Below, in pieces: positions 14,022 through 50,500 of a stretch of DNA of 64,000 nt (positions are counted from its first letter, which is position 1; each line of letters starts with the position of its first letter). Source of the DNA: Owenia fusiformis (lineage: Eukaryota; Annelida; Polychaeta; Sabellida; Oweniidae); NCBI GenBank assembly GCA_903813345.2, contig CAIIXF020000002.1, forward strand, positions 2,394,001-2,458,000, read 5' to 3'. A program made the position numbers and the translations under genes. Below the pieces are notes generated by a model. That model was not told the origin of the DNA. It saw only the letters and a list, made by a program, of their open reading frames with translations, and ran no database searches.

Positions 14022-15464
14022 ATGGATCTGCCTAAAGTTCAAGTGGACTACGCTACCAGGGAGGGGGACTGGCAATTTAATCCTAATCCAGAACTATATG
14101 CAGAAGTGGCAACCCAGTTTCAGCGAAGAAATGCCAATACACTACTCAAAGGTAATAACTATGTTTTTATCATCATTCCATGCCATATTATTTGTTATAA
14201 ACATAAGCCAGTGTTTGTCAGGTGGGAGGGGTTCAGTTATTTTTCAAATTGGGGGGGGGGGGGGATTTGTGCACAATCCCGATTCTCGGCATTGCTATTG
14301 TTTGTTTTATTAGTCTTTATAAGCAATGAATGAATTGCCTTGGCAAGTTCCTCCTTAGTGTGCATAGGTTCAACAAATTTCAGAATTGTGTTGGAGTTAT
14401 CTGGATGACATTATACTCGATATTGGTTGTAACAATGGTGATGTTACAAAGATGTTGCTTTCTAAAAGTGATCAAATACACCACATCATGGCATGTGACA
14501 TCCTAGCTCCTTGTATTGAGTATGCCAAGCAGAAGAATGCTGATGCCAATATAACATACATAGAGATGGATGTGTGTAAAGAGTGGCCAACAAGCTGGGA
14601 AAACAGATTTGACAAGGTAGTCAATTTTGGTATAAGGAAAAAATGATCATCCATTTGATCAGATCAAATATGAAATCAACATTCTTCACGAAATTCCCCA
14701 ACAATATTTAGCTAGGTAATGGCTCAAACATAGTATATTTTGCAATGATCCTTATTTGTAGCTTTTTGATCAATCATTAAAAGTGTTGAAGAACATATTG
14801 ACAACACAGTGCACACATAATGAACTTGTAAATACATTTATAATTTTTTTATTTTCCCTTAATGATAGATATTTCATTTCAGGTTTTCTCCAATGAATGT
14901 TTGAACATGATAGTTGACAACCAGGAGAATGTATTAAAGAAGGTTTTCAACAGTCTTAAGCCAGGGGGTGAACTTGGTGCATCATACTTTCTACGCATTG
15001 ATGGTATACAAGCTGCAACTCTAACATTGATGGAATCAGAAAAATGGAAAAAATACTTTACAGAAAACAAATTGTCAAAAACACTTGCAATTACCCAGAA
15101 AAATATTGAAAAAATGGTCTGGTGTGATGAACAGGTATTTCCAAAAATGCTAGAAAAAATAGGATTTCAAGTAAAATTATGTAAATCTGTACAATCTTGG
15201 AGTTTTCTGAAAATTGATTGCACATTCATAAAAGGAACTTTTGACCTATTTTTCAAGTTTTATCATCAGATTCCAACTGCTCTACAAGGTGACTACTTAA
15301 CTGATATGGTTTCTATCATCAAGGAAATTGAAATGATGAAATTTCAGTTCCTCTCTGATAAAGGCAATGAATGGGCACATCTTATGCAAGATGAATCAAA
15401 TGATAAACACCCTCTTTGTCAGGAATTAATCATAATACACTGTGTAAAACCAAATGTATCATAG
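14022..15464 (+). CDS. Class I SAM-dependent methyltransferase, JHAMT-like, copy 1
   Basis: Three exons give 314 codons: 14022-14151, 14384-14616 and 14883-15464. Both introns have GT/AG ends and the codon split across intron 1 reads through. The SAM-binding motif I (LDIGCNNGDVT) is at about residues 55-65, the acidic strand-2 residue in ACDILAPC at about 82, the FDKVFS strand-4 motif at 119-124, and LKPGGELG follows in exon 3. The motif pattern and length fit the juvenile hormone acid/farnesoic acid methyltransferase-like family. In insects that family transfers a methyl group from SAM to a carboxylate; outside arthropods the substrate is unknown. No signal peptide or membrane segment, so probably cytosolic. 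Possible polyadenylation signals (AATAAA) lie near 15584 and 15705. A G run (14249-14263) sits in intron 1. Confidence 0.85.
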
Positions 15465-16662: not shown

Positions 16663-17830
16663 ACTAGAAAAACAGCAACTCCACTGAGTAGCAAATCCCA
16701 CCGAACAAAACATGTTTTGATAAAAAAAATTGAGCCAAATTCATCCACTGGTATTTGAATTATCAAAGATTATGTCTTTATGAAACATGGTTGCCATTTT
16801 GAAATTCAGCTGTCATCTTTAGATTTCTTCTTTAGCAGAGAATGTCTGTGCAATGGTATCTGGGTTATCAAAGATTACTTTTTTAATGAAAAATGGCAGC
16901 TATTTTGAAATTCAGCTATCGCCTTTGAAATTTCTTCTGAAGCAGATCTCCTTTTTCCCTAAACATCAGCATATAAAATTGGAACCAAATCCATCCACTA
17001 GTATTTGAGTTATCATTAATTACGTTTTTTTACGAAAAATGGCGGCCATTTTGAAATTTAGTGGCAATCTTGAAAATTTATTTTTGAGCAGAACTTCTAT
17101 GTCTCTAGGCATCAGCATATAGAATTTGAACCAAATCCGTCAACTGGTATTTGAGTTATCAAAGGTTACGTTCTTTTATGAAAAATGGCAGCCATTTTGA
17201 AATTTAGCTACCACCTTGAAAATCCCTTCTCGAGCAGAGCTCCTATGTCCCAAGGCATCATAATGTAAAATTTGAACCAAATCCATTCAATGGTAATTGA
17301 GTTATCAAAGATAATGTTTTTTTATGAAAAATGGCGGCCATTTTGAAATTTAGCTGCCATCTTGAAAATCCTTTCTTGAGCAGAGCTCCTATGTCCCTAG
17401 GCATCAGCATCTAAAACTTAAACCAAATCCATTAAATGGTCTTTGTGTTATCAAAGATAACGTTTTTTTTACGAAAAATGGCCACCATTTTGAAATTTGG
17501 TGGCCATCTTGAAAATGTCTTCTTGAGCAAGGCTCCTTTGTACCAAGGCAACAGCATATAAAATTTGAACCAAATCCATCCACTAGTATTTGAGTTATTA
17601 AAGATTATATTTTTTCCCAAAAATGGCTGCCATTTTGAATTAAGCGGCCATATTGAAAATTCCTTCTCAAGCAGAGGTCCTACACCCATAAGGCATAAGC
17701 CTATAAAATTTGAATGAAATCCATCAACCGGAATTTGAGTTATTGCCCGGACACACGAACGGACGGACAGGCGGACGAACGGACGGACGGCTTCTCTATA
17801 TCCCCCTCGAACTTCGTTCGGTGAGATAAT
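16663..17830 (+). repeat. Dispersed element with 150-bp internal repeats, copy 2
   Basis: Same ends and internal units as 6167-7488 (ACTAGAAAAACAGCAACTCC to CTCGAACTTCGTTCGGTGAG). The duplicated flank at 20505-20530 shows the empty site: CACATTCAAATCAATGG is interrupted here, so the element inserted only four or five bases before the methyltransferase start codon. Any target duplication is at most about 2 bp (AA). Confidence 0.88.
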
Positions 17831-17832
17831 CA

Positions 17833-19321
17833 ATAGATCTGCCTAAAGTTCAGGTGAATTACGCTACCAGAGAAGATGGTTGGAGAATTACCCCTAATCC
17901 AGAACTGTATGCAGCAGTTGTAACACAAATTCAGAAAACAAACGCTAATACACTTCTCAAAGGTAAAGGATTACTCAACTCATTTTCACATGATTTATTA
18001 GATAGAACAGGTGAAATGAAAACATTTGAAACCTAAAACAAATACCTTTATATTCAGATGTGTTGCATACAAGCAATTAGATACTTGGTGGTATTCAGGT
18101 ATTAAGCTGTGTAGAATTAAGAGAAAATTCATATAGTTTATAATGTGTTTTTTACTAGTTTTCATAGAGAAAAAAGAATTGAAAATTTGATTAATTAAAA
18201 AAACAATCATATTGTTGTTGCTATTAAACCTATGTAATGACATAAGTACACAAGTTTGTAAACTTATGTTTAAAATGGTAATAAGAATTTGAAGTGTAAA
18301 CGCAAACATTTAATCAATGACATAAAGGTCACAATGTTGCCTCTATCAACAGCCAAAAAGTACAGAAAATGGCAATATATCTTACCACAAGCTGAAAAAT
18401 GATTCCATGTAGAACAAATTTTCAGAATTGCATTGGAGTTATCAGGATAATGTCATACTCGATATTGGTTGTAACAATGGTGATGTTACAAAGATGTTGC
18501 TTTCTAAAAGTGATCAAATACAACACATAACTGCATGTGACATCCTAGCTCCTTGTATTGAATATGCCAAGCAGAAGAATGCTGATGCCAAGATAACATA
18601 CATAGAGATGGATGTATGTAAAGTAAAGAGAGTATCAATATGTTGAAGAACATATTGATAACACAGTGCACACATAATGAACTTGTAAATACATGTATAA
18701 TTTTGTTATTTTCCCTTAACGATAGATATTTCATTTCAGGTTTTCTCCAATGAATGTTTGAACATGATAGTTGACAATCAGGAGAATGTATTAAAGAAGG
18801 TTTTCAACAGTCTTAAGCCAGGGGGTGAATTTGGTGCATCATACTTTCTACGCATTGATGGTATACAAGCTGCAACTCTAACATTGATGGAATCAGAAAA
18901 ATGGAAAAAATACTTTACAGAAAACAAATTGTCAAAAACACTTGCAATTACCCAGAAAAATATTGAAAAAATGGTCTGGTGTGATGAACAGGTATTTCCA
19001 AAAATGCTAGAAAAAATAGGATTTCAAGTAAAATTATGTAAATCTGTACAATCTTGGAGTTTTCTGAAAATTGATTGCACATTCATAAAAGGAACTTTTG
19101 ACCTATTTTTCAAGTTTCATCATCAGATTCCAACTGCTCTACAAGGTGACTACTTAACTGATATGGTTTCTATCATCAAGGAAATTGAAATGAAGAAATT
19201 TCAGTTCCTCTCTGATAAAGGCAATGAATGGGCACATCTTATGCAAGATGAATCAAATGATAAACACCCTCTTTGTCAGGAATTAATCATAATACACTGT
19301 GTAAAACCAAATGTATCATAG
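17833..19321 (+). pseudogene. Methyltransferase copy 2: start codon lost, 12 codons missing
   Basis: Exon equivalents are 17833-17962, 18426-18622 and 18740-19321. The position aligned to the ATG of copies 1 and 3 reads ATA (17833-17835), and there is no other in-frame ATG in exon 1. Exon 2 stops after DVCK: 36 nt encoding the residues from EWPTSW to FDK are absent, together with the start of intron 2. A GTAAAG at 18623 could act as a new donor and would keep the frame. Exons 1-2 resemble copy 3, while intron 2 and exon 3 resemble copy 1, so this is a recombinant copy. The loss covers the strand-4 region near the active site. Exon 3 remains open, which fits either a young pseudogene or a protein with an altered start. 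Confidence 0.8.
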
Positions 19322-20525
19322 GAAGTCTGTATATTTTGAATTCAAGTCTTATTTTTGCATACACAGGTACATTAGGTAACACAGTGGTGAAGCTCACAAA
19401 AAAATGATTCTTAAAACTGAAAATCACAGAAGCGAAAAATAAAATGCATTTTACAACTATTTTGTATTTTTGTAATCAAGAATTAGTTTAGTCTAGTCTT
19501 AGTTCAATCTTGTATATTGTAGTTGGTAGTCAATGTCATTGTAATAACATCAAATGGTGTCAATAAATATATGACCCAACCCAAAAAAATATAAAGAGCC
19601 ATTCCTGACTAAATGAATGGTATTACCACTCAATAATAATAACAAATGGAGAAAAGTGGAAATGGGAACCAGCTCTGTGAAAAAGGTTTAGTCTTACTAA
19701 GGGAATGATTTTAAAAAGTATATAATTGCCAAATATACAGATGAGTAATATTTTGTTTGTATGCATTACTAGAACACCTTTGATTGTTTTTTTGTATTCA
19801 ATATTTAATTTTGATATTTTTAATGAATCATTGTATTGACTCAACTGTGAACATGTTGCCATGTTGGAAGTCAGTTTTAGCTAGATGTTTTTGATTGTAT
19901 CAAGCAACACTTTTTATTGTTATGCCCTCTTTTGAATGTGTACTAGTTATAGTAAGTCTTAGTTAGTGTTCATCATTGGAACAGCTGATTATCATATACC
20001 TACAATACAAACAACATATTCTTTATACTGTATACACCCACAAGGGTGTCATGTAAAACCTTGTAAATAATACTATATATAAGAAAAAAATAAAGCTGAA
20101 TTGAATTGAAGTTGAATTAACTTGGGGTTGAGATGACCTGTCACCATTCAAGTAATAAGCCAAATCTGAACAGACGGGTTCAATATTGTAAATAACAAGA
20201 ACTTTAGGGGTATTTTTTCATAGGGGTGTCAAGTAGGCAATATCTTATTCAACATTAAGATCAATCCAATTCAGAAAATAAACAACCGTGATTTAATACC
20301 TACATGTATATTACACAGCAGACAGATGTTCGATTCTGCTCTAAGCTGCAGTTTTATTTTGTGAATAGAAAAAATTGCTGCTGCTGGTCTCACTTATATG
20401 GAACTTTATTCAACCTTATATCCAACCAATATACATGTAGCACTTTTCATATCAATTTCAACACATCACAAAAGGAAAAATATTTGTGAACTTTGAAAGT
20501 ACATGTATAAAACACATTCAAATCA
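19322..20525 (+). other. 3' flank of copy 2 and 5' flank of copy 3
   Basis: Near-identical to 15465-16662, without the inserted element. Its end (CACATTCAAATCAATGG) is the intact form of the copy 2 promoter-start junction. No other gene seen. Confidence 0.7.
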
Positions 20526-22162
20526 ATGGATCTGCCTAAAGTTCAGGTGAATTACGCTACCAGAGAAGATGGTTGGAGAATTACCCCTAATCCAGAACTG
20601 TATGCAGCAGTTGTAACACAAATTCAGAAGACAAACGCTAATACACTTCTCAAAGGTAAAGGATTACTCAACTCATTTTTACATGATTTATTAGATAGAA
20701 CAGGTGAAATGAAAACATTTGAAACCTAAAACAAATACCTTTATATTCAGATGTGTTGCATACAAGCAATTAGATACTTGGTGGTATTCAGGTATTAAGC
20801 TGTGTAGAATTAAGAGAAAATTCAGATCGTTTATAATGTGTTTTTTACTAGTTTTCATAGAGAAAAAAGAATTGAAAATTTGATTAATTAAAAAAACAAT
20901 CATATTGTTGTTGCTATTAAACCTATGTAATGACATAAGTACACAAGTTTGTAAACTTATGTTTAAAATGGTAATAAGAATTTGAAGTGTAAATGCAAAC
21001 ATTTAATCAATGACATAAAGGTCACAATGTTGCCTCTATTAACAGCCAAAAAGTACAGAAAATGGCAATATATCTTACCACAAGCTGTAAAATGATTCCA
21101 TGTAGAACAAATTTTCAGAATTGCATTGGAGTTATCAGGATAATGTCATACTCGATATTGGTTGTAACAATGGTGATGTTACAAAGATGTTGCTTTCTAA
21201 AAGTGAACAAATACAACACATCATGGCATGTGACATCCTAGCTCCTTGTATTGAGTATGCCAAGCAGAAGAATGATGATGCCAAGATAACATACATAGAG
21301 ATGGATGTGTGTAAAGAGTGGCCAACAAGCTGGGAAAACAGATTTGACAAGGTAATCAATTTTGGTTGTAAGGAAAAATGATCATCCATGATAGCCATTT
21401 GATCAGATCAAATATGAAATCAAGATTCCTCAAAAAATTCTCTGACAATTATTTAGCCAACTCGATCAAATATTTTTGAATAAATTCCTCATTTGTAACG
21501 TTTTAACCATCGCAAGTTTTGAGGAACATATTAATTACACATAAAGTAGATCCAGTGCATATATAATGATGGATTTTTCATTTTAGGTATTCTCCAATGA
21601 ATGTTTGAACATGATAGGAGAACAGAAAAATGTATTGAAGAAGGTTTTCAACAGTCTTAAGCCAGGGGGTGAACTTGGTGCATCATACTTTCTACGCAAT
21701 GATGGCTTCCAAGCTGCAACTCTCACATTGATGGAATCAGAAAAATGGAAGAAATACTTTGAAGATGAAACGAGGTCCATAAACATTGCCAAATCCAATG
21801 AAAACATTAAGAAAATGGTCTGGTGTGATGAGCAGGCATTTCCAAAAATGCTAGAAAAAATAGGATTTCAAGTAAAATTATGTAAACCTGTTCAATCTTG
21901 GAGTTTTCTGAAAATTGATAGTTCATTCATAAAAGGAATATTTGACCTATTCTACAAGTTTCATCGTATGATTCCAACTGCCCTGCAAGATGACTTCTTT
22001 GCTGATATGGTCACTATTGTTAATGAAGTTGAAATGAACAAATATCAGTCTCTCTTTGATAAAGGAAATGAATTGAGATTTCCCTCAAAATATGAGTTGG
22101 ATGATAGAAATCCACATTGTGTTGAACTTCTCATACTGCACTGTATTAAACCTAATGTTTAA
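20526..22162 (+). CDS. Class I SAM-dependent methyltransferase, JHAMT-like, copy 3
   Basis: Exons 20526-20655, 21119-21351 and 21587-22162 join to 312 codons with the same phases as copy 1 (1, then 0). Motif I (LDIGCNNGDVT), ACDILAPC, FDKVFS and LKPGGELG are all present. Exon 3 is the most divergent of the three: it has MIGEQKNVL in place of MIVDNQENVL, a different EDETRS region and an RFPSKYELDD tail. This copy therefore predates the copy 1/2 duplication. No obvious defect. Expected role as for copy 1: methyl transfer to a small carboxylate, substrate unknown. Confidence 0.85.
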
Positions 22163-23244: not shown

Positions 23245-26200
23245 TTTTTGGCTCTTACTTCAGCATGTCTATAAGGACTCCATTCCATACCAGCAACAGC
23301 ATACACCATTCGGTCACCCTCCCCCTGTAAAAAAATAACACAAATTTGACTACGACAACAGTTGCATTATTTGCTTACCCTCCCACTGTAAAATAGAAAG
23401 AATAAGTACACAGTTGCATCAGTGGGTTTCCCTCCCCCTGTAAAAAATAACATAAATTTATCTAGAACCTGACAGATGTACTTTTAAGTTACCCTCCCCC
23501 TGTAAAATATAAAATTGTATTTACATGTAACTACACAGTTGAATCATTGGGTTTCCCTCCTCCTGTAAAAATGACATAAATTTATCTAGGACCTGACAGT
23601 TGTATTATTAAGTTACCCTCCTCCTATAAAAATATAAAGTATAAGTACACAATTGCATTTTTTGGTTTCCCTCCCCCTGTAAAAAACACAAATTTATCTC
23701 GAACTATAGTTGCATTATTTACTTATCTTCCCCAGTTGCATCTATCGGCCACCCTCCCCCTGTATTATATAAGGGGTTACATACCTCAATACGCAGAACA
23801 TCTACAGGTTTGGTGACACCTTTTATTATTGCAAGAGCTGTCTCACATAACCACCTGAAAGCATACACCAAATGTTGTAAATGTAGATAACAACTTAAAA
23901 ATCATTAAAAGTATACATAAATAAATAACCATGTTCAGACCTGGTCATTTTACTATTTTAAGGGCAAATCAAATGTTGTGTACTTCTGTGACATTTATAA
24001 AATTAGGACACATGGGCCAAGCTCGGAGTTTTTCAAAATGAACAAAAAATAAAACTTAATGCCCAAACTTAGCAGTCTTTTGTTTTAGTGTATACATGTA
24101 GTTGCATCCTAAACAATCAAATAAATTAATAAAAATTAAATTAATAAATTAATTAAAAATTAATTTCTGTTTTCTTACTTGACTTTGTCCTGATTGTCTG
24201 TAAAAATCAACTTAGCCAGACTGTTGCTTTTTCCTATTGGTATGATCCCTATTGGCACTTTCTTTACAATGTCCTACAAATATAATTTTTGATCCCTATT
24301 GGCATTTTCTTTACAATGTCCCACAAATATAATTTTTGATCCCTATTGGCATTTTCTTTACAATGTCCTACATACTTTCTAATAAAAACTCCTACAAATA
24401 TAATGTATAATCACCGGTATCCATTCCATTATAGATATGTTCTTTACAATGTGCCACAAAAATAACCAATATAATATATAATCTCTATACTAGGCACTTT
24501 AGTTACTATGTCCTATTATTACCACCTTGCAGGGCCTGTTCTAGGGGTTTTAGTACTAGTTGAGAAGGCATCTAAATTGCTATATTGACGTGAGCAATAT
24601 TGTGTCGGGCGTTAATGACTTTAGTCGGGCAATAATGACATTATCTGCCCGGCTATGTTTCCCGGGAAAAGTGATATCGTTCAGTGTGTAAGATTTTCTA
24701 TTTCAAATTTGCTATTTCAGCCCTGGGCATTAACGGTGATAATAATAGTAATAATGTCATTTCTGCGGGCAAAATAGTGAAATATTGGACCTTGGTCCAA
24801 TATTTCACTATATTGCACTTTGAAATGACGTTATTGTACTATTAATGTAAAACATGATCCTTACTGGCACTTTCTTTACAATATCCTACTACAAATATAA
24901 TATATGGTCCCTGGCCCTATCTTGACATGATTCATGATCTTACCTGATTTTCTCGACGTAACAGCCCAGTAACTATTTCAGAGACAGTTCCATCACCTCC
25001 AGCTACAATGATAGCATCTGTGTCCTCCGTCTCTATGACTCCCATGTACTTCTTGGCCTGACCTACAGACTCTGTCTGCAATGTGTAATATCCATATATA
25101 CATCGAAATTGTATCACATTGCATGGCAATACAATCAATTTTAGATTGTATCTTGGGTAAATCGATTTTTCACTGCAGTTTTAATAAATTATACTTTTTA
25201 AACTCTGGTTAGGATTGGTAGGTTTGGGAGCATTGCACTCATAATTGTTCTTAACAATGTACCTTTACACACTTGGATTAAAAAGTTTATTTAAGAAAAA
25301 TGTTTTATAATCCCCAGTGCTTTGCAAATCTCATTATAAATGAGACTTTGACTCCATATATATGTTTGCCAGTCCTATATTAAATTTCCCCCTATCTTAC
25401 CCTGATAATATTGACCTCAAGGCCAGCCAAATGCAGCAGAGGCACAGCATCTTTCTCAAATGCACTCTTGCCATCCCTAGAGAGATAATAAAAAGAAAAG
25501 AAGTAACTCCATCATTGTGAACCTATATGTCATGATAATTGTGTGATTTAGTGTTATAGGCCTCATGTCTTTCTACAATCTGTAGCAATTTTATCAAATA
25601 AATCTTAAAATAATAAGAACATTTGTAACTTTAATACTGGACAGCCTGTAGTCCACACAATTGTGTATTGCCTGTCAGTATTAGAATGTGAACCTTGCAA
25701 GACACATATAAAATAGGAAGTTTAGCGATATTTGTTAAACTCAGATGTGACACATATAAAAAAATGATTGTTCTCAGGGACTAGTTTCCCCTTTTGTGGC
25801 CTTTATTCAACCAATTGATTATTAAAATAGATGTAATAAACACCCTCTATAAACCATTGCATGAAGGTTCTCCAGGTTCTATAATATTTCTAGTGAGAAC
25901 CATGATTTTACCTGTCATTGACCTTGATAACACATGTACATGTCATTGGCCATGATAATTAACCCATTATATTACCTGTTATTGGCCATGATAACACATA
26001 CACATGACATTGGTCATGATAATAAAGACACATTACCTATTATTGGCCATGATAACACATGTACATGTCATTGGCCATGATATTAAACCCATTATATTAC
26101 CTATTAGTGGCCATGATAAAACATGAACATGTCATTGGCCATGATAATAGTCAGCCATAATAATACCTTTCATTGGCCATGATAAGAGTCAGCCATAATA

Positions 26201-29200
26201 ATACATGTCATTGGCCATGATAATAGTCAGCAATAATAATACCTATCATTTGCCATGATAATAGTCAGCCATAATAATACCTTTCATTGGCCATCATAAT
26301 AGTCAGCCATAATAATACCTGTCATTGGCCATGATAAGAGTCAGCCATAATAATACCTGTCATTGGCCATGATAATAGTCAGCCATAATAATACCTGTCA
26401 TTGGCCATGATAATAGTCAGCCATAATAATACCTGTCATTGACCATGATAAGAGTCAGCCATAATAATACCTGTCATTTGCCATGATAATAGTCAGCCAT
26501 AATAATACCTGTCATTGGCCATGATAATAGTCAGCCATAATAATACCTGTCATTGGCCATGATAATAGTCTGCCATAATAATACCTGTCATTTGCCATGA
26601 TAATAGTCAGCCATAATAATACCTTTCATTGGACATCATAATAGTCAGCCATAATAATACCTGTCATTGGCCATGATAAGAGTCAGCCATAATAATACCT
26701 GTCATTGGCCATGATAATAGTCAGCCATAATAATACCTGTCATTGGCCATGATAATAGTCAGCCATAATAATACCTGTCATTGGCCATGATAATAGTCAG
26801 CCATAATAATACCTGTCATTGGCCATGATAAGAGTCAGCCATAATTATACCTGTCATTTGACCTGTCATTGGCCATGATAATAGTCAGCCATAATAATAC
26901 CTGTCATTGGCCATGATAAGAGTCAGCCATAATAATACCTGTCATTTGACCTGTCATTGGCCATGATAATAGTCAGCCATAATAATACCTGTCATTGGCC
27001 ATGATAATAGTCAGCCATAATAATACCTGTCATTGGCCATGATAATAGTCTGCCATAATAATACCTGTCATTTGCCATGATAATAGTCAGCCATAATAAT
27101 ACCTGTCATTGGCCATGATAAGAGTCAGCCATAATAATACCTGTCATTTGACCTGTCATTGGCCATGATAATAGTCAGCCATAATAATACCTGTCATTGG
27201 CCATGATAAGAGTCAGCCATAATAATACCTGTCATTTGACCTGTCATTGGCCATGATAATAGTCAGCCATAATAATACCTGTCATTGGCCATGATAATAG
27301 TCAGCCATAATAATACCTGTCATTGGCCATGATAATAGTCTGCCATAATAATACCTGTCATTTGCCATGATAATAGTCAGCCATAATAATACCTGTCATT
27401 GGCCATGATAAGAGTCAGCCATAATAATACCTGTCATTTGCCATGATAATAGTCAGCCATAATAATACCTGTCATTGGCCATGATAAGAGTTAGCCATAA
27501 TAATACCTGTCATTGGCCATGATAATAGTCAGCCATAATAATACCAGTCATTGGCCATGATAAGAGTCAGCCATAATAATACCTGTCATTTGCCATGATA
27601 ATAGTCAGCCATAATAATACCTGTCATTTGCCATGATAATAGTCAGCCATAATAATACCTGTCATTTGCCACTGGGTTGAGAAAGACTGTCACCTTCCTG
27701 GGTCTCCCTGCAGGACCATTCAACTGCTCACCATATTGCTGAAATAAGGTAAACATGGATGTAACTCAATGTACATGTAACTTGGGTGAAATCATACTCG
27801 CTAACCTGTTTAATAATAGATCAAAAACAAACCTTGGAAATTGGGCAATGTGTATACATGTACCCTTAAGAAAAAAGCCATGGTAGCCATGATATTCCAT
27901 GGTTATCAATGGTTTTCCATGGAAATTCATGGTTTTTCATGGTATTTTCCATGTAATTTCATGGACGTCCATGGTAATCTTCCATGAATATTTACCATGA
28001 TCTTCCATGAATGCCATGTTTTTACCATGATACTAAGTGACTTGGAGTTGTAAAATCAACAATTTTGGCAGTTTTTGTATTTACCAAAATCTTCCAAATT
28101 GAATCAATGTTTAAATGAATGAATCCAAGCTGGATTGAGACTAATCATAGAGAGAAGAATATAATGTCCCCGTCAATTTTTTGAGAAAGTCAACCCCCTT
28201 GCGGAAGCTTGCTACAGGCCTGAAATACAACCATGCACCTTATTTTCATAATCTAGATATATGTTTAGTTCTATGATAAAGATATTTTCATAATCTAGAC
28301 ATGTTTACTTGGAGTTTTTAATCCTATTTTGTTTTATTTGATCAACAATGAGTTTTTGACTTGCACTGTCTACACTCACAGACAATTAAAATTACTAAAG
28401 AGGAAGCACTCGTCATAAATAATAACAATTAAGATCATAATACATGTATTTTAGAATTATGCAAATGAACTATATAATCTGTTGCAAAGAGAAATTTTAA
28501 CACTAATTTGAGAGTTAAGAAATCTAATTAACATAAAACAATGACAACCAAATATTTAAAGATTATGCATGATTATGACTTCTTTTTAAATAGATTACAT
28601 AATTATAGTAACTTTAGTACATAGACAAATAGATTTTTGATCACTTATGCGTTGGTCACGTATGCTCCGATTTTCAGCGCCGGCGCCCAGCCGATTGAGT
28701 ATTGTGTTCAAAATTGAATACAACTTTGAACACAATACTCAATCGGCCGGGCGCCGTAGTAAAAATCGGAGCAAATGTGACCACGGCATTAGGCATTACA
28801 TTTCAGTTGGCAGTCATAGGCTTGTGTTTAATCCCCTACCTTAATTTCAAGTCGAAATTCTAAAAAGTACATGGATTTTTCAGACAATGTGCTCATAAAG
28901 GTTAAATGAGACTTTATTTGGAAAAGTTCAATGTTCATTATGCATTATTCTTTTTTCTGCATCCAAAAAGACCAAACAAATAGTCATGGAAAACCATGGA
29001 TTTTTCAAAAGATCAAAAGAATAACCATGGAAAACCATGGCTTTTGATTGCACTTTCCAAAACATCAAAGAAATATCCATGGAAAAGCATGGCTTTTGAT
29101 TGCACTTTCCAAAACATCAAAGAAATATCCATGGAAAAGCATGGCTTTTGATTGCAATCAACCGGCTTCCATGGCTTTTGATTGCAGTTTCCTCAACTTC

Positions 29201-31588
29201 AAAGAAAGAAACCATGTTTTTTTTATTGCATTCTAAAATGTAAGAATGTAATTTAAGGAAAAGAGTTATTTATTTTTGAAATTATTTAATTTTAATTTTC
29301 ATAACTGAATATTAAAGAAACAATAAGAAGACAAAACAGAGGTAGGGCTAGTTTGACTTAATCTTTTCTTTGGCCTAAAAAATAAGGAATCTCTGTCTCT
29401 GTATCTAGTCTTGATCTACACAAAAGCCCTATACATATTTCTCTTTGAAATCTTGTGGCCTACTCCGTGCTGCAATAACTACATTATCATATTTCTTTTT
29501 AGAAAAGTTACATAATTTTTACATATTTGTAAGGAACCTGAGTTTAAGCTGAGTTTAATATGTTCCTGCTAAACCTAAAATAACATGAAATGTCCACCCT
29601 TTCTTCTCACAGATAAGTCTCAGTCCAACTTGGATCTCTGTGTGTCCTGGTAAAAACCATGACACGTCCATGAAAAAACAATTACCAAACCACTAATTAC
29701 CATGGATAATCATGATAAATATCCATGGAAGATTACCATGGGTGTCCATGAATTTCCATGGAAAATGCCATGAAAAACCATGAATTTCCATGGAAAACCA
29801 TGGATTACCATGGACGTACCATGGAATACCATGGTTACCATGGCTTTTTTCTTAAGGGTAGTTATATTGATTTTCTGATATCTCAATATCAGCTAAAATG
29901 CAATTGTAACAATGTGGAAATAAGGGGATGATTTTTAGTTGCACAAAGAGTACATCTAGTTTTATGTAAATGAAAATAATGTGGGACTCAAATTAGGAAG
30001 CAATAAACATTTCTGAATCTGCAGAAAAAATTTTAATCAGTAAAAGACAATTAATGGTTTTTCAAATTTTTGATAATGCACTGATATAAACCCCCCCCCA
30101 TGGGTATCTAGTGTGTTAATGTAACACTAGATAATTATACTACATGATTAAATAAAAAACAATAAAAAAGTCCTACCTTTGCTTCCAAGCAGTAAGCTGT
30201 TCGCGTCTGGTTATCACTGAAAATATTCAAAATTATGAAGGAATAATTTTAACCTATAAACATTCTGTTCACATCAGTTCATCAATGAAAATATTCAAAA
30301 TTATGAAGGAATAAATTAAACCAATAAACATTCTGTTCTTGTCAGGTTATCACTGAAAATATTCAAAATAATGAAAAAATAATATAAACCAATAAACATT
30401 CTGTTCTCGTCAGGTTATCACTGAAAATATTCAAAATTATGAAGAAATAATTTAAACCAATAAACATTCTGTTCTCGTCAGGTTATCACTGAAAATATTC
30501 AAAATAATGAAAAAATAATATAAACCAATAAACATTCTGTTCTCGTCAGGTTATCACTGAAAATATTCAAAATTATGAAGAAATAATTTAAACCAATAAA
30601 CATTCTGTTCTCGTCAGGTTATCACTGAAAATATTCAAAATTATGAAGAAATAATTTAAACCAATAAACATTCTGTTCACATCAGTTTATCAATGAAAAT
30701 ATTCAAAATTATGAAGGAATAAATTAACCAATAAACATTCTGTTCTTGTCAGGTTATCACTGAAAATATTCAAAATTATGAAGAAATAAATTAAACCAAT
30801 AAACATTCTGTTCCTCGGAAAATATTCAAAATTATAAAGAAATAATTTATACCAATAAACATTCTACACTATCAAGATATATATATTTATGGCCGTGTTC
30901 ATGTAAAGACTTTTTTAATCTAGCTTAGTACAATGTTCTTGAATTGTCAGCAGCAGAAATGGCCAACCAAAAAATGCTTATGATCACAATATGAAAGCAA
31001 ATCAAGATAAAATACTCTTGACAATTTGCTTAGATTCAAGGAAATGTAGAATGTCACTCGGATGGACTTCTTGGATGGACGAATGGAGTTCTGTAGTAGC
31101 CTCACTGACCTTTTATTGTTACTCAAAAGCATATTCTCTCAAAATCAGGAAATTAGGGTGATGAGCAGGGATATTTTGAAGGGAATTCAGTCACTCTGAA
31201 ATGAGTGACAACTTACAATTCCTTCAAGTGTAAAATATGTGTGATTATTTGTATCAAAATATTTCAAATCCAGAGATAACAGGGATTGACACTGCTTTTC
31301 ATTTCGATTATACATTTCCTATTCTGAGATTACTGATAATATACCGATATGTTTATTTAAAATTGTTGATTACTGAGTAAAATGCATGGGCGATAATAGG
31401 TGAAAATGTAAAATCGTAGTTTTTATCTTCTTACATCTGACAATCTATACGTCCGAACCGATGATACTTAATTCAGATACTTACTCGTACTTTCCTTTTA
31501 GATATTTAACACCATATGCTGCAACTGCTGCAAAGAATATTGACTTTTTGGGGTTATTTCGTAAAGTTGTCAAAATCTTTAAAACCAT
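23245..31588 (-). CDS. agk: Acylglycerol kinase, mitochondrial, N-terminal eight exons
   Basis: Exons in order: 31588-31485, 30216-30177, 27738-27659, 25476-25401, 25075-24944, 24273-24179, 23854-23785 and 23324-23245. All have GT/AG junctions and the phases agree, giving 225 residues. The start is the ATG at 31588-31586, opening MVLKILTTLRNNPKK with a hydrophobic stretch, like the AGK amino end. The diacylglycerol-kinase catalytic domain shows VFLNPVAND, GQAKKYM, the nucleotide-binding GGDGT at residues 126-130, VPIGIIPIG and GMEWSPYRHAE. The family phosphorylates mono- and diacylglycerol at mitochondrial membranes; the vertebrate protein also joins the TIM22 complex. Full-length AGK is about 420 residues; the C-terminal exons were not found here. 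Four introns hold junction-spanning arrays. Confidence 0.9.
23312..23768 (-). repeat. Acceptor-spanning repeat, AGK intron 7
   Basis: About eight copies of a unit containing (on the - strand) TTTTACAGGGGGAGGGT, spaced about 55-70 bp. The first copy is the true acceptor and start of exon 8 (acceptor AG at 23326-23325). The last, near 23750-23765, also keeps the exon-like bases GGGTGGCCGAT. Units alternate between two flanking types (GCTTACCCTCCC and GGGTTTCCCTCC on +), suggesting a two-unit higher-order repeat. The array ends about 16 bp before the exon 7 donor. Confidence 0.85.
24244..24384 (-). repeat. Acceptor-spanning 47-bp repeat, AGK intron 5
   Basis: Three 47-bp units, with GATCCCTATTGGCA (+ strand) at 24244, 24291 and 24338. 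Each unit carries the first 30 nt of exon 6 plus about 17 nt of intron. The true acceptor belongs to the first unit. The second has lost its AG (TGG) and the third keeps TAG. Degenerate relatives occur near 24425-24450 and 24850-24905. Confidence 0.88.
24590..24845. repeat. Small palindromic element in AGK intron 5
   Basis: A 38-nt palindrome (24774-24811; 18-bp perfect arms ATAGTGAAATATTGGACC) lies in a CGGGCA/ATAATGACATT-rich stretch that looks like a MITE. Terminal repeats cannot be defined with confidence. Confidence 0.55.
25555..25655. mobile_element. Degraded mariner-type end in AGK intron 3
   Basis: TCTACAATCTGTAGCAATTT and AACATTTGTAACTTTAATAC then GGACAGCCTGTA resemble the right end of the 9244-13845 element (13770-13845) with many substitutions. 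Only one end is visible. Confidence 0.6.
25905..27671 (-). repeat. Donor-spanning 38-bp minisatellite, AGK intron 3
   Basis: About 40 units of 38 bp run from about 26140 to 27671, with degenerate, longer-period relatives from 25905. On the - strand each unit reads GGCCAATGACAGGTATTATT followed by ATGGCTGACTATTATCAT. The unit nearest the gene is the exon itself: exon 3 ends TGGCAAATGACAG and intron 3 begins GTATTATTATGG, so 12-13 exon bases and the splice donor are part of the repeat. Variants GGCAAATGACAG (as in the exon) and GGCCAATGACAG alternate. A 13-bp insertion (CCTGTCATTTGAC on +) recurs at about 26850, 26940, 27140 and 27230, showing higher-order copying. Confidence 0.93.
27863..29858. 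mobile_element. 2.0-kb CCATGG-rich element with long inverted ends, AGK intron 2
   Basis: The ends CCCTTAAGAAAAAAGCCATG (27863) and the reverse complement (to 29858) lie next to TA on both sides (27861-27862, 29859-29860). Inverted similarity extends about 170 bp and is saturated with CCATGG/CATGG palindromes. Inside are a 55-bp tandem repeat (29035-29215, containing CCATGGAAAAGCATGGC) and a family 2 fold-back at 28650-28790. A TA duplication fits Tc1/mariner-like MITEs. No transposase frame was found. Confidence 0.8.
28650..28790. repeat. Fold-back element, family 2, copy A
   Basis: Arms of about 60 bp (GGTCAC...GCTCCGATTTT...CCGATTGAGTATTGTGTTCAAA and its reverse complement) around a short ATTGAATACAAC centre, GC-rich in the GGCGCCCGGCC part. 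A degraded copy lies at 50753-50865. Confidence 0.8.
30217..30880 (-). repeat. Acceptor-spanning 68-bp repeat, AGK intron 1
   Basis: About nine or ten 68-bp units lie directly upstream (in gene sense) of exon 2. The - strand unit has GAATATTTTCAG then TGATAACCTGACGAGAACAG. Exon 2 begins TGATAACCAGACGCGAACAG after the same TTTTCAG, so the unit includes about 20 nt of exon. Six units keep an intact CAG (near 30350, 30420, 30488, 30556, 30625 and 30765). Three have lost it (CAT or deleted). Confidence 0.9.
30881..31484 (-). other. Remainder of AGK intron 1
   Basis: AT-rich intron sequence. No repeat or gene is recognised. Confidence 0.6.
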
Positions 31589-35575: not shown

Positions 35576-36734
35576 ATTTATTGTAACTCGCGTTTGCTAA
35601 TATTTGCTCAGTTCTGAGATGAAGGCCACACGGGTAGTAAAAAGGCCAACGTTGGAACTATTTGTGACCTACATCCCTATTTTCGTAATTAAAATGAAAG
35701 TTGAACCTTTCCTTTTTATTTTGATACCAAACAACAGCATGCTAGGTACTTAAAATTAGGTAAACTTTACTCCTCAAAAGTGCAAAAACTTAGCTTCTTA
35801 TAAAAGATAAGATAATCACAATATAGGGGATTGCAACAATTTCGAAAATTCGCGGAGGTCAAAGCCACATTTGCGGGACTTCGCGGGACATTGCGGGACA
35901 CGCGAATTAGCCTAATTTTGATCAAATTCGCGGGATAATCCCGCCATTCGCGGGACACTTGACAGCTCTGGACTTAGGCAGTGTTCAAGGGCATATTGAT
36001 ATGGGCACAATCCAGAGACAAGGACACATTCTGGGGACATTGACAAAATCAATAGACATGGGCAATAATCCAGAGACTGAAGCTTGGAGCAGAGTTCAGT
36101 GGCAAATTGATATGGGCACAGTCCAGAGACAAGGACATATTCTGGGGACATTGACAAAATCAATAGACATGAGCAATGATCCAGAGACACAGTCAGCACC
36201 ATCTATCTATTAGTATCTAATATCATCTAATATAATAGAATGAAGTCCGGTAACTTAGAAAAAAACTGAAGATAAAAAATAAGGTAAAATATACACCAAC
36301 TCAGTGATTATGACCAAACAAAAACGGGAGTCAAAACCGGAAGGCAAAGAGTAACCGCACTTTCAGTCTAATATCTGAATATCTGAAGATTGATAGTGGT
36401 CACTGGGTCCAGAGACTTAGGCAGAGTTCAGGGGCATATTGATATGGGCACAATCCAGAGACAAGGACATATTCTGGTGATAATTGACAAAATCAATAGA
36501 CATAGGCAAAAATCAAGGACATATTCTGGGGAGAATTGACAAGGACAAATTCTGGATCACATAATCAGATTCCGAAGAACTATATTGTAGACATATGAAC
36601 ACAATCCAGGAGGATACAGTAGGTAGTATGTCTTGTCCACGTAATGGGTACAATCCAGAGACAAAGTCTATTCCGGGGAAATGTAGTCAGATTCCGAAGA
36701 AGTAGACATATGAACACAATCCAGGAGCATAGGC

Positions 36735-38235
36735 TCAATCCATGGATATGGACACAATCAAGGGACATGGACAAATGCCGGCGATGATACATGTAGAGAC
36801 ATAATTTAGCGGGATTGACACAGCTCTGAGATATGAACACAGGCCTTGAGCATAGACACAGCCCATGGATATGGACACAATCAAAGGACATGGACAAATG
36901 CCGGCGATGATACATGTAGAGACATAATTTAGCAGGGTTTGGCACAGCTCTGAGATATGAACACAGGCCTTGAGCATAGACACAGCCCATGGATATGGAC
37001 ACAATCAAGGGACATGGACAAATGCCGGCGATGATACATGTAGAGACATAATTTAGCGGGATTGACACAGCACAGAGATATGAACACAGGCCTTGAGCAT
37101 AGACACAGCCCATGGATATGGACACAATCAAGGGACATGGACAAATGCCGGCGATGATACATGTAGAGACATAATTTAGCGGGATTGACACAGCTCTGAG
37201 ATATGAACACAAGCCTCGAGCATAGACACAGCCCATGGATATGGACACAATCAAGGGACATGGACAAATGCCGGCGATGATACATGTAGAGACATAATTT
37301 AGCGGGATTGACACAGCACAGAGATATGAACACAGGCCTTGAGCATAGACACAGCCCATGGATATGGACACAATCAAGGGACATGGACAAATGCCGGCGA
37401 TGATACATGTAGAGACATAATTTAGCGGGATTGGCACAGCTCTGAGATATGAACACAGGCCTTGAGCATAGACACAGCCCATGGATATGGACACAATCAA
37501 GGGACATGGACAAATGCCGGCGATGATACATGTAGAGACATAATTTAGCGGGATTGACACAGCTCTGAGATATGAACACAAGCCTCGAGCATAGACACAG
37601 CCCATGGATATGGACACAATCAAGGGACATGGACAAATGCCGGCGATGATACATGTAGAGACATAATTTAGCGGGATTGACACAGCTCTGAGATATGAAC
37701 ACAAGCCTCAAGCATAGACACAGCCCATGGATATGGACACAATCAAGGGACATGGACAAATGCCGGCGATGATACATGTAGAGACATAATTTAGCGGGAT
37801 TGACACAGCTCTGAGATATGAACACAAGCCTCGAGCATAGACACAGCCCATGGATATGGACACAATCAAGGGACATGGACAAATGCCGGCGATGATACAT
37901 GTAGAGACATAATTTAGCGGGATTGACACAGCTCTGAGATATGAACACAAGCCTCGAGCATAGACACAGCCCATGGATATGGACACAATCAAGGGACATG
38001 GACAAATGCCGGCGATGATACATGTAGAGACATAATTTAGCGGGATTGACACAGCTCTGAGATATGAACACAGGCCTTGAGCATAGACACCGCCCGTGGA
38101 TATGGACACAATCAAGGGACATGGACAAATGCCGGCGTTGATACATGTAGAGACATACTTTTGCGGGATTGGCACAGCTCTGAGATATGAACACAAGCCT
38201 CGAGCATAGACACAACCCATGGATATGGACACAAT
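36735..38235 (-). repeat. 123-bp minisatellite, about 12 units
   Basis: The unit contains (+ strand) CCATGGATATGGACACAATC, GGACATGGACAAATGCCGG and GAGACATAATTTAGCGGG, repeated every 123 bp (41 codons). The words GATATGGACACAATC and GGACA resemble GATATGGGCACAATCCAGAG of the 105-bp unit, so the two arrays are probably related. Two - strand frames are open across most of it (36929-38290, 453 codons; 36580-37704, 374 codons, continued at 37708-38232). Cys-rich 41-residue repeats result. Simultaneous openness of two frames argues against translation. Confidence 0.92.
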
Positions 38236-47242: not shown

Positions 47243-47505
47243 AGGGTCGGTGGAGTGAACAGCAAGAGTCAGAGACGTGATGATATTATAGTAGATACTC
47301 AAGAAGAAGTCGGTGAAATGAACAGCGAGAGTCAAATCCGTGATGGTTTTATGGTGGATAACAAAGAAGAGGTCGGCGGAGTGAACAGCAAGAGTCAACG
47401 CCGTGATGATATTATGGTGGATACTGAAGTAAAAGTCGATGAAATGAACAGCGAGAGTCAAAGCCGAGTTGATATTTCACCTGTTAAAGTGGATACTCAT
47501 GTTGA
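47243..47505 (+). repeat. 63-bp coding repeat in transporter exon 1
   Basis: About 3.5 units of 63 bp (21 codons) with GTGAACAGCAAGAGTCA / ATGAACAGCGAGAGTCA alternating. It is open on + and continuous with the transporter frame after excision of the insert. The upstream limit is unclear, because the repeat begins right after a TAA and a possible acceptor (AAAG at 47241-47244). Confidence 0.8.
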
Positions 47506-50500
47506 ACAGGATCTTAAGAGGTTCTGGACAAATCATTTGATTCTGGACTTGTCATATTTTTTTTTCAACGAAATCACATCCAAGGGTTGAATTTTTATTA
47601 GCTATTTAGAGAGTGAGTCCTGCCTAGTATTAATTTCAATAAAAAAAAGTTAAAATAGGACCCAATTTGAGAGTCAATCTAATACTTACATAACATTGAT
47701 AAATTAAGGCAAATCCTGAAATATTTTTAAAGAGCATTTTTTATGAAATATTATCCAGCAAGTATTTAGATGAAACGGTCTTATTTAAATACAAATCATA
47801 ACATTATGATATTTTTCATGAAACATTTTTCATTTAAATTTTTAATTTAGGTGAAAACCCTTACATGATGATGTGTTTTCATAACTTCTTTCATAAAATT
47901 CCATCAAGGGGTGAAGATAAAATGATCGAATTTAAGTGATTTAAGGATCACGAGAATATGTTTTCTTGGATATTTTCTATGAAATCCCATCCAATGGTCA
48001 AGGTAAAATTTTGATTTTGATTTGGTATTAGGTCACGTGTTCCAAAGATCCATATAAGGCCCATAGAACCATATAGGAACGTCATTTTGAATGTCACGTG
48101 ATAGATCCATATAAGGCTTTTAGAACCATGTCGGGAAAGATGAGGGGAAGCCCCTGACACCTGTTTCACGATTTTATCCGAACGTTGTTCGGATCATTTC
48201 GGTTTTTATGCACTTCATTATTGTACCGAAGTTTGCCGATTCGATTCCTCGTATTTCGGAATCCTGGTGACAATTTTATACTCCATTTGGAGTAATTTTG
48301 ATCTACTTCTTATGACGAAAATTCCCGAACCTTGTTCGGATTAATACGGATTTTCTGACCTACTTTATCTTCCGAGATTTCACGAGTTAACATTCGTCTC
48401 ATTTCGGAATCCTGGTGACAATTTTATACTCCATTGGAGTATTTTTGATCTACTTCTTATGACGAAAATTCCCGAACCTAATTCGGATTAAACCGGATTT
48501 TCTGACCTACCTTATCTACCGAGATTTAACGAGTTACATTCGTCTCATTTCGGAATCCTGGTGACAATTTTATACTCCATTGGAGTATTTTTGATCTACT
48601 TCTTCTGGATTTTGCCCTACTTATTATATCTTGACAACAAGCAAATCAAAAAGTTCGACATGAACGGGTCTCGATCAACTAACCTATAGCGTGGAAGCCA
48701 GGCACGCTAACCATGATGCCAACGTGCCGCCGATATGAAAGAACAAAAGTAATATATATTTATACCGAGCGTCAATTCAAAATGATCCCCACTTTTGACT
48801 GCACTTAAATACGACTCGTCAGCTGTATCCAGAATAGGTAAACGCCTATGGCGCTAGTGAATAACCAAGTCCCAGGTGAGTGGTTCGTATCCCTCTGTGA
48901 TATACTATTTTTGTTTTATTAAATACGACAGAAAGGAGCAAGGTGTAGCTTGAAAACAAGACGTTAGTTTGTTTCAAAACAGTTTGGAAACATTAAACAT
49001 TAAACATTAATTTAAGATTTTCCACTCCTGAAGGGGCTCTAGATCTATGAAATTCATTAATCCACTCAGTAAAAATACGATTCCTCTGCAACCTGATGTC
49101 CAATCAAGATTATTGAAATATATATGTGTTCCTGACACGTTTGAGCGACCAGGAATAGCAAGGTCTACACAAAGTTTGCACGCGAAATTGACGTAATTCA
49201 TGACTGAAATTGGGAAGACAAAATTTGAGATTCACAAACAAAATTGCTTGTGAAAACAATTTACAAAAGTGTTCCAGAGACTCTAATCTACTTGGCTAAG
49301 GTTTTATCTGAAGATTGCCTTATTAAGCAGGTAGAGGGGCATACAGAATACGGAAGCAAATGCTATGTTGAAAATGTTCTATATTTCAATTTGATACTCT
49401 TATTACATGTCACGTAGGCCAGTGTTTTATATGGGGATTATATGTACTTTACTTGTTTATATGAACGTAAATGATTACATGAAATCTGCATTCTTCCGGG
49501 TTTAATCTGGGTTTGTATTGTCTTATTGGGGCTTTTCGACTTTAAAACAAACCCTACCTAAATGGATTGTGTCTCGGGAACGTTTTTGTAAATAGTTATT
49601 GGAGAGGTTAAGCTAACGATGTTTTTCACAACGTAACCGTGAACGCAAAGTACGAAAATTAACAAAGGAATGTATCGAGCGCTCATAGTTTTATGCGCGC
49701 TTAGTCTACTTCAGATACTCTTTCAGCTTCAGATTTTCGGGTTTAGAACGGGAGATTTGAAATTTGACGTTGGGTCAACGGGAACCATTTTACACGTGTC
49801 TATTGAACACTATGCTGTCAATTTCGATGCACAGTTGAATTCTTGCTGAACACGATGATGTATGTCATGCATGATTTAGCGCCAAAAATCTTACGAAACG
49901 AGCTCGTTTAAAATATGTATTAGAAAACCAGCTATAAAACCGCATCAATGACATACTATAGAATCATTACACGCTATGGTGTAGTCTAAACAAACACTGG
50001 ATTTGAACGGCTATTTATATGAGAAGGCTACATGAATTTGTATATGGTCGAGTGATACGTACAGGTTCAGTTTCGATTATATATGCAAAGCTTAACCTCT
50101 CCACCATAAACAATTCTGAAAGAATATCACATATTTTTGTCTTCTCGATTTCAGTCATGAATTACGTCAATTTCTCGTGCAAACATTGGGTAGACGTTGT
50201 CATACCCTGATGCCAGAACGTGTCAGGAACATATAGATACTCGAATGATGTTGATTGAACATCAGGGTGCAGAGAAATCGTAATTTTACTGAGTGGCTTC
50301 ACGAAAAAATAAGCAGCACTTTAGGCCACCTTAAATACAACTCGTCAGTTGTATCCAGTTGGAATCCCAGCGTATTTTTTAAATTTTTTTTATTATATGG
50401 TTGTGCTTTGATTTTACGCTGAAAACATTTATAACTACGTCAACTTTATATTTAAACATTTATTATCTTTTCAGTTGTATTAAAATGTAAAATATGATAT

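Follow-up and report, generated by a model that had tools for sequence, protein, structure and literature searches.

Four tandem arrays of exon-intron junction copies in an animal AGK gene, compared with known boundary minisatellites

Boundary minisatellites and the present locus

The minisatellite of human IFI6 (6-16) reportedly gives multiple splice donor sites, an observation said to go back to Turri et al. in 1995. Human CBS likewise carries copies of an exon-intron junction together with its splice site, from two events in one gene; one of these added just one copy, and both are variable in the human population. In CBS ins68 the preferred site is the more distal one, and the mRNA produced is normal. 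The IFI6 minisatellite lies at a donor, its units act as donors and it thereby yields several of them, the use of other units giving mRNA variants (PMC4526556; also cited in PMC2572611). Further cases are 27 intron modifications in human duplicated genes, with tandem repeats at exon-intron boundaries (PMC2812944); an intron of the potato RdRp gene gained when a segment crossing an intron-exon boundary was duplicated in tandem (PMC4974935); tandem repeats of UBC and VCX3A that contain dual-specific splice sites (PMC10809524); and tandem duplication in general, reviewed as a route to intron gain (PMC3443670).

The AGK gene described here, from the annelid Owenia fusiformis, belongs with the exon-intron boundary minisatellites of which human CBS and IFI6 are examples; what is notable is the presence of four in one gene. 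Such minisatellites have units of about 15-100 bp that hold the end of an exon and its splice site; the AGK units measure 68, 38, 47 and about 60 nt (introns 1, 3, 5 and 7, the lengths also given in a preliminary description of this DNA), and all four hold an exon end and a splice site. Such minisatellites also differ in copy number between individuals and use more than one copy as a splice site; of varying copy number in AGK, the exact 304-nt repeat inside intron 3 may be an indirect sign. Compared with the two events of CBS, AGK has four, with up to about 42 copies, and is known from one sequence. The IFI6 minisatellite resembles the AGK intron 3 array, but its other units serve as donors for mRNA variants, whereas all tested AGK decoys lead to a stop. 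The modified human genes share with AGK boundary tandem repeats that alter intron structure; these are recent paralogues with novel introns, whereas in AGK existing introns are lengthened and the window holds no second copy. The potato RdRp segment, too, crosses a boundary and inherits acceptor signals, but there one duplication made a new intron, whereas AGK has many copies and no new intron. Finally, UBC and VCX3A show an AG/GT tandem motif (the slash marks the splice position), as do the AGK intron 3 units with CAG/GTATT; there, both donor and acceptor sit within the repeat and intron length amounts to a whole number of units, whereas the acceptor of AGK intron 3 lies outside the array.

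In the searches made of open-licence papers, several junction arrays in one gene outside humans were not found. The four AGK repeats offer a natural series on splice-site choice among near-identical neighbours and on intron lengthening, and a single gene carries the known human cases (CBS, IFI6) over to another animal.

The AGK gene and its junction copies

On the minus strand of the 64-kb window, by which is meant the whole stretch of DNA analysed (64,000 nt), an animal gene for the lipid enzyme AGK is represented by its first eight exons (Table 1). Joined, they encode a conceptual protein of 225 residues with an open frame throughout, which matches PF00781 (diacylglycerol kinase catalytic domain) with E 3.8e-25 and human AGK (7cgp_B) with 197 bits, query residues 6-223 to chain residues 5-220. 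The alignment with human AGK has a single gap of 2 residues, within exon 5, and none at the four array junctions. All seven introns are GT...AG, and GT also stands directly 3' of exon 8.

Table 1 Features of the window. Positions count from the first letter of the window; strand is given where assigned.
Feature	Position	Strand	Remark
AGK exon 1	31485-31588	-	coding part, from ATG
AGK exon 2	30177-30216	-	40 nt; initial 20 nt belong to the intron 1 array
AGK exon 3	27659-27738	-	final 13 nt belong to the intron 3 array
AGK exon 4	25401-25476	-	
AGK exon 5	24944-25075	-	encodes GGDGT of the kinase domain
AGK exon 6	24179-24273	-	initial 31 nt belong to the intron 5 array
AGK exon 7	23785-23854	-	
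AGK exon 8	23245-23324	-	last one detected within the window
Intron 1/exon 2 acceptor array	30197-30858	-	68-nt unit, 10 copies including the real acceptor
Exon 3/intron 3 donor array	25900-27671	-	38-nt unit and distal part
Intron 3 array, core	26130-27671		TRF, 41.3 copies of the 38-nt unit
Intron 3 array, distal part	25900-26185		more diverged, period about 64 nt
Intron 5/exon 6 acceptor array, core	24243-24373	-	47-nt unit, 2.8 copies including the real acceptor
Intron 5, diverged unit copies	24374-24515	-	24374-24412, 24438-24465, 24477-24515
Intron 5, distal copy of exon 6 acceptor junction	24854-24912	-	31 nt from exon 5 donor
Intron 7/exon 8 acceptor array	23304-23772	-	about 60-nt unit
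Intron 2 element	27854-29867		about 2 kb, inverted ends
Hairpin-like short inverted repeat	24750-24835		intron 5
Hairpin-like short inverted repeat	28644-28792		inside the intron 2 element
Small gene with DIGCNNGDVT motif, copy 1	14022-15464	+	
Small gene with DIGCNNGDVT motif, copy 2	17830-19321	+	
Small gene with DIGCNNGDVT motif, copy 3	20511-22162	+	
123-nt tandem array	36708-38235		12.4 copies at 96%
ORF with in-frame 63-nt tandem repeat	47243-47590		3.7 copies
Reverse transcriptase fragment	58033-58707	-	PF00078

The preliminary description spoke of seven introns; seven were indeed found, but they are part of a larger number, because the N-terminal half of AGK alone is represented. For the C-terminal half, motif searches of the window gave nothing convincing, tblastn with an approximate human query sequence gave an unconvincing best E of 1.9, and the minus strand of positions 1-23244 is without a convincing C-terminal exon. 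The remaining exons lie outside the window, were missed by the search or have been lost. If they lie farther on, intron 8 would exceed 23 kb and enclose three methyltransferase-like genes; otherwise AGK is broken or the search missed them. A tblastn search of the window with the conceptual protein, directed at a second AGK copy, returned the eight known exons only.

Fifteen AGK splice sites (7 acceptors and 8 donors) were probed with 35 nt of exon plus 40 nt of intron, each searched against the whole window with E up to 0.05. Four of them have copies in tandem arrays nearby, namely the acceptors of exons 2, 6 and 8 and the donor of exon 3, with nine further matches for acceptor 2 (best 93% over 58 nt), forty-one for donor 3, eight for acceptor 6 (best 97% over 71 nt; one of the eight is weak and lies outside the gene at 46 kb) and seven for acceptor 8 (75-95% identity). 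The best further match of these four junctions has E values from 7e-24 to 2e-7. Among the remaining eleven sites, eight match themselves only, donor 1 has one weak match elsewhere and donor 6 two, and the intronic flank of donor 7 matches two members of the intron 7 array, one being the real exon 8 acceptor. Under a stricter test, which counts local matches (within 3 kb) that cross the centre of the probe, acceptor 2 has 8 copies, donor 3 has 40, acceptor 6 has 5 and acceptor 8 has 3; the other eleven sites have 0.

The claim that four of the seven introns carry arrays copying a junction was thus borne out, as was the statement that the repeat unit takes in the exon end or start with the splice site: the units hold 20, 13, 31 and 15-31 nt of exon plus the AG or GT, above the threshold of about 8 nt set in the preliminary description. 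Introns 3, 5 and 7 hold additional, more diverged copies beyond those it had described.

In intron 1 the exon part of the unit is TGATAACCAGACGCGAACAG (20 nt), 18 of which are identical to the common array unit, and TTTTCAG/TGAT is retained in 6 of the 9 other copies. The distal copy scores 30 bits with the unit model versus 59-73 for the others. Because the array units have bases in common which exon 2 lacks, either the array was amplified mainly from a copy that had changed beforehand or exon 2 itself changed afterwards. Translated, the units give DNLTRT, against DNQTRT in exon 2 and DNLLRR in human AGK; an older state of this codon may survive in the array, a matter of a single residue and no proof.

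The exon part of the intron 3 unit is TGGCAAATGACAG (13 nt), identical at 13/13 positions in the nearest unit; the nearest decoy and the real donor are identical over 36 nt, and the functional donor reads GTATTA, the array's version. Copies in the distal part score 9-17 bits with the unit model, and those that come next score 42-53. The most distal copy, AATGACAG/GTAAAATC at about 25918, passes into unique intron and the first copy passes into unique exon, as a tandem duplication at the donor predicts. A block of 304 nt is repeated exactly at a spacing of 290 nt, which suggests that copy number changed recently, unless the block is an assembly error. Each unit also has CTGAC about 22 nt before the end of its CAG, which resembles a branch site by consensus.

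In intron 5 the exon part is GACATTGTAAAGAAAGTGCCAATAGGGATCA (31 nt, 30 identical) and encodes KVPIG, aligned without gaps with KIPIG of human AGK. The copy adjoining exon 6 is 97% identical and more distant copies 77-88%; the copy nearest the exon 5 donor has 85%. The near copies are accordingly young, yet others have diverged further than the farthest one. Between the near copies and the distal copy there is a hairpin element whose arms are 42 nt long.

Intron 7 is the weakest of the four cases. Eight profile matches, including the real acceptor, and one more diverged copy recognised by eye extend from exon 8 to 12-20 nt short of the exon 7 donor; the acceptor 8 alignments reach 15-31 nt into the exon, and its 9-nt core GGGGAGGGT is exact in 2 of 7 copies. 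The seven decoys of this intron, picked by AG-containing patterns, were also recovered by the profile. There is no simple age gradient, the most distal copy being closest to exon 8 in its exon part.

Origin of the arrays and growth of the introns

Profile models of the four units gave strong matches confined to each unit's own intron within the window, with two weak matches near 62 kb (E 0.3 and 0.04). This upholds the proposal of four separate junction-seeded amplifications rather than one transposon. A transposon origin of the four arrays was rejected, copies outside their own introns being absent from the window, and introner elements were rejected as well, no unit sequence being common to several introns (window, the weak matches near 62 kb aside). 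The exon, not the array, is to be regarded as the source, since what was copied codes for residues aligning gap-free with human AGK.

The likeliest reading is one of ordinary mutation tolerated at a special place: four independent duplications straddling a junction would have been tolerated and would have grown into minisatellites that lengthened existing introns from their ends, a reading to which we give a probability of roughly 0.78. The sequence itself establishes the arrays, their exon content, their separate origins, the stops described below and the presence of more diverged copies away from the exon (introns 1, 3 and 5); the mutational mechanism, the site used and near-neutrality we infer. 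Four independent small tandem duplications, each beginning on one side of an AGK exon-intron junction and ending on the other (the units now measure 38-68 nt), would have left the body of the exon attached to the outermost copy, so that splicing at that copy would give correct mRNA and the extra copies would turn intronic. Through slippage or unequal exchange each unit would then have expanded into a minisatellite and made the intron longer at that end, and the functional splice site would have become one member of the array, with sequence in common with it. The exon-proximal copy would normally be chosen via exon definition, given its short distance to the exon's other splice site; splicing at any other tested copy would give a premature stop and probably mRNA decay. 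Some observations speak against this reading: microhomology at the first breakpoints, judged by eye, is weak or ambiguous (2-3 nt for two arrays; 8/9 nt in intron 5, which may be the remnant of a further unit), and the divergence pattern of introns 5 and 7 and the bases shared by the intron 1 units, described above, likewise do not fit it simply.

The preliminary description had linked the arrays to intron growth or gain. Growth is supported by the share of each intron concerned (by hand from coordinates): about 51% of intron 1 and about 81% of intron 3 are taken up by the array, while unit matches account for about 30% of intron 5 and, in intron 7, for about 80%. Gain is unsupported, because introns 1, 3, 5 and 7 are each copied at one end only; junction probes for the opposite splice site of these introns found no junction copy in the window. 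It is accordingly very improbable that introns 5 and 7 were themselves created by tandem duplication (Rogers-type intron gain) and grew later: array copies do approach the donor in both introns, but the donor 5 and donor 7 probes found no junction copy and each intron is repeated at one end only. Two related classes were rejected. Dual-specific arrays of the UBC type have the donor and the acceptor of the intron inside the repeat, and acceptor 4 and donors 1, 5 and 7 lack local junction copies; intron gain from an AGGT segment derives both splice sites from copies of one exonic segment, and in introns 1, 3, 5 and 7 junction copies are confined to one end.

Misassembled repeats that invented or inflated the arrays are a still fainter prospect. 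The exact repeat in intron 3 could be an assembly duplication; however, point changes distinguish many units, and four unrelated arrays would need four separate errors. The copy numbers of the AGK arrays are uncertain.

Another explanation would make splice junctions favoured birthplaces of minisatellites in this lineage, as hotspots (e.g. through R-loops or pausing) with a bias across the genome; introns would then routinely grow at their ends and splice sites evolve with the array, the present donor CAG/GTATTA being the array version and CAG/GTAAAA at the far end, which is nearer the consensus, a candidate ancestral one. We consider this unlikely. The intron 2 element aside, the gene has five arrays whose unit is at least 20 nt long; four straddle a junction, the fifth (20-nt unit, two copies, 24604-24643) lying off junctions. 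In the seed null, seeds as long as the observed units (for intron 3, alternatively 24 nt) were placed randomly in a collapsed gene of about 3 kb with estimated intron lengths, and wholly exonic and exon- or intron-spanning seeds were discarded; straddling in 4/4 then has p = 0.0001-0.001 and in at least 4/5 p = 0.001-0.005, and at present gene length the values are 2e-6 to 1.5e-5 and 2e-5 to 8e-5, all of them affected by the choice of AGK for its striking look. With eight eligible arrays, however, p for at least 4/8 rises to 0.016-0.046. By position count, no enrichment at junctions was found among the sampled AGK and window positions: of the 15 splice sites, 4 (27%) fall within local repeats, versus 145 of 334 AGK positions (43%) with at least two local copies, the figure for the window being 689 of 2472 (28%). 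The seed null is the more fitting, because growth adds sequence rather than covering exons. Such arrays are also absent from all 13 splice sites of other genes in the window (0/13 vs 4/15, p = 0.10). These sites were placed by eye, eleven in three methyltransferase-like genes and two in a transporter gene; the eleven are not independent, because the three genes are paralogous, and six of the 13 have one local copy each, their paralogue. The two nulls thus disagree, and enrichment at junctions is suggestive by seed placement only. If a bias across the genome were true, intron growth by junction duplication would be a general, measurable process.

Decoy splice sites and other features of the window

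All 64 decoys tested (47 donors; 6, 4 and 7 acceptors) lead to a premature stop: over the first 1830 nt of intron 3, splicing at any of the 47 GGTA/GGTC sites gives a stop at the 80th codon, and the acceptors do so in 6/6 cases in intron 1, 4/4 in intron 5 and 7/7 in intron 7. The intron 7 decoy nearest the donor is hardly usable, because only 25 nt are left. Judged by their letters, look-alike and real sites are nearly indistinguishable.

It is improbable, though less so than an origin of introns 5 and 7 by duplication, that the arrays are functional, the repeated sites titrating splicing factors or diverting transcripts to stops and copy number being selected. Such a role would accord with the near-identity of look-alikes to real sites (four intron 1 copies match the real acceptor throughout the 22 nt preceding AG), with the stop that follows each tested decoy, with the strength of donor 3, which has the fewest consensus matches (6/9 vs 7-8 for the other seven donors; the distal intron 3 copy has 7/9), and with the loss of AG, in introns 1 and 5, from the copy closest to the real acceptor. 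Premature stops would, however, be expected in AT-rich intron sequence, and loss of AG in the nearest copy concerns two of three introns, too few, since it is kept in intron 7. Nor are decoys visibly purged, because the majority of copies retain GT or AG. When the search model was masked at the splice-site columns, GT stood in 41/41 other intron 3 copies covering the site and full AGGT in 38/42, real donor included; AG is kept in 6/9 other copies in intron 1 and in 7/8 in intron 7, where the diverged copy near 23735 has lost it. Unusual RNA folding as a cause of decoy neglect was looked for in five stretches, which proved unremarkable (z -1.17 to 1.32), and this ordinary folding, too, speaks against a function. 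The competition between splice sites that the preliminary description took to follow, and the selection on splicing it had thought possible, therefore stay putative, GT being kept in every intron 3 copy covering the site although the decoys truncate the protein; tolerated duplication of junctions stays the preferred reading.

The element in AGK intron 2 has inverted ends (50-nt and 114-nt arms, 90% complementary), is rich in CCATGG repeats and resembles a non-autonomous DNA transposon; repeats of introns 2 and 5 apart from the junction arrays look like inverted-repeat elements. The motif DIGCNNGDVT of the three small plus-strand genes is presumably methyltransferase-like; a Pfam search with the last exon of copy 1 gave no match, and the middle copy seems to be without the end of its second exon. 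Elsewhere in the window, long open frames run through the 123-nt tandem array by virtue of its repetition; the ORF with the 63-nt repeat consists of units of about 21 residues and has no Pfam match; and the reverse transcriptase fragment on the minus strand is that of a retroelement.
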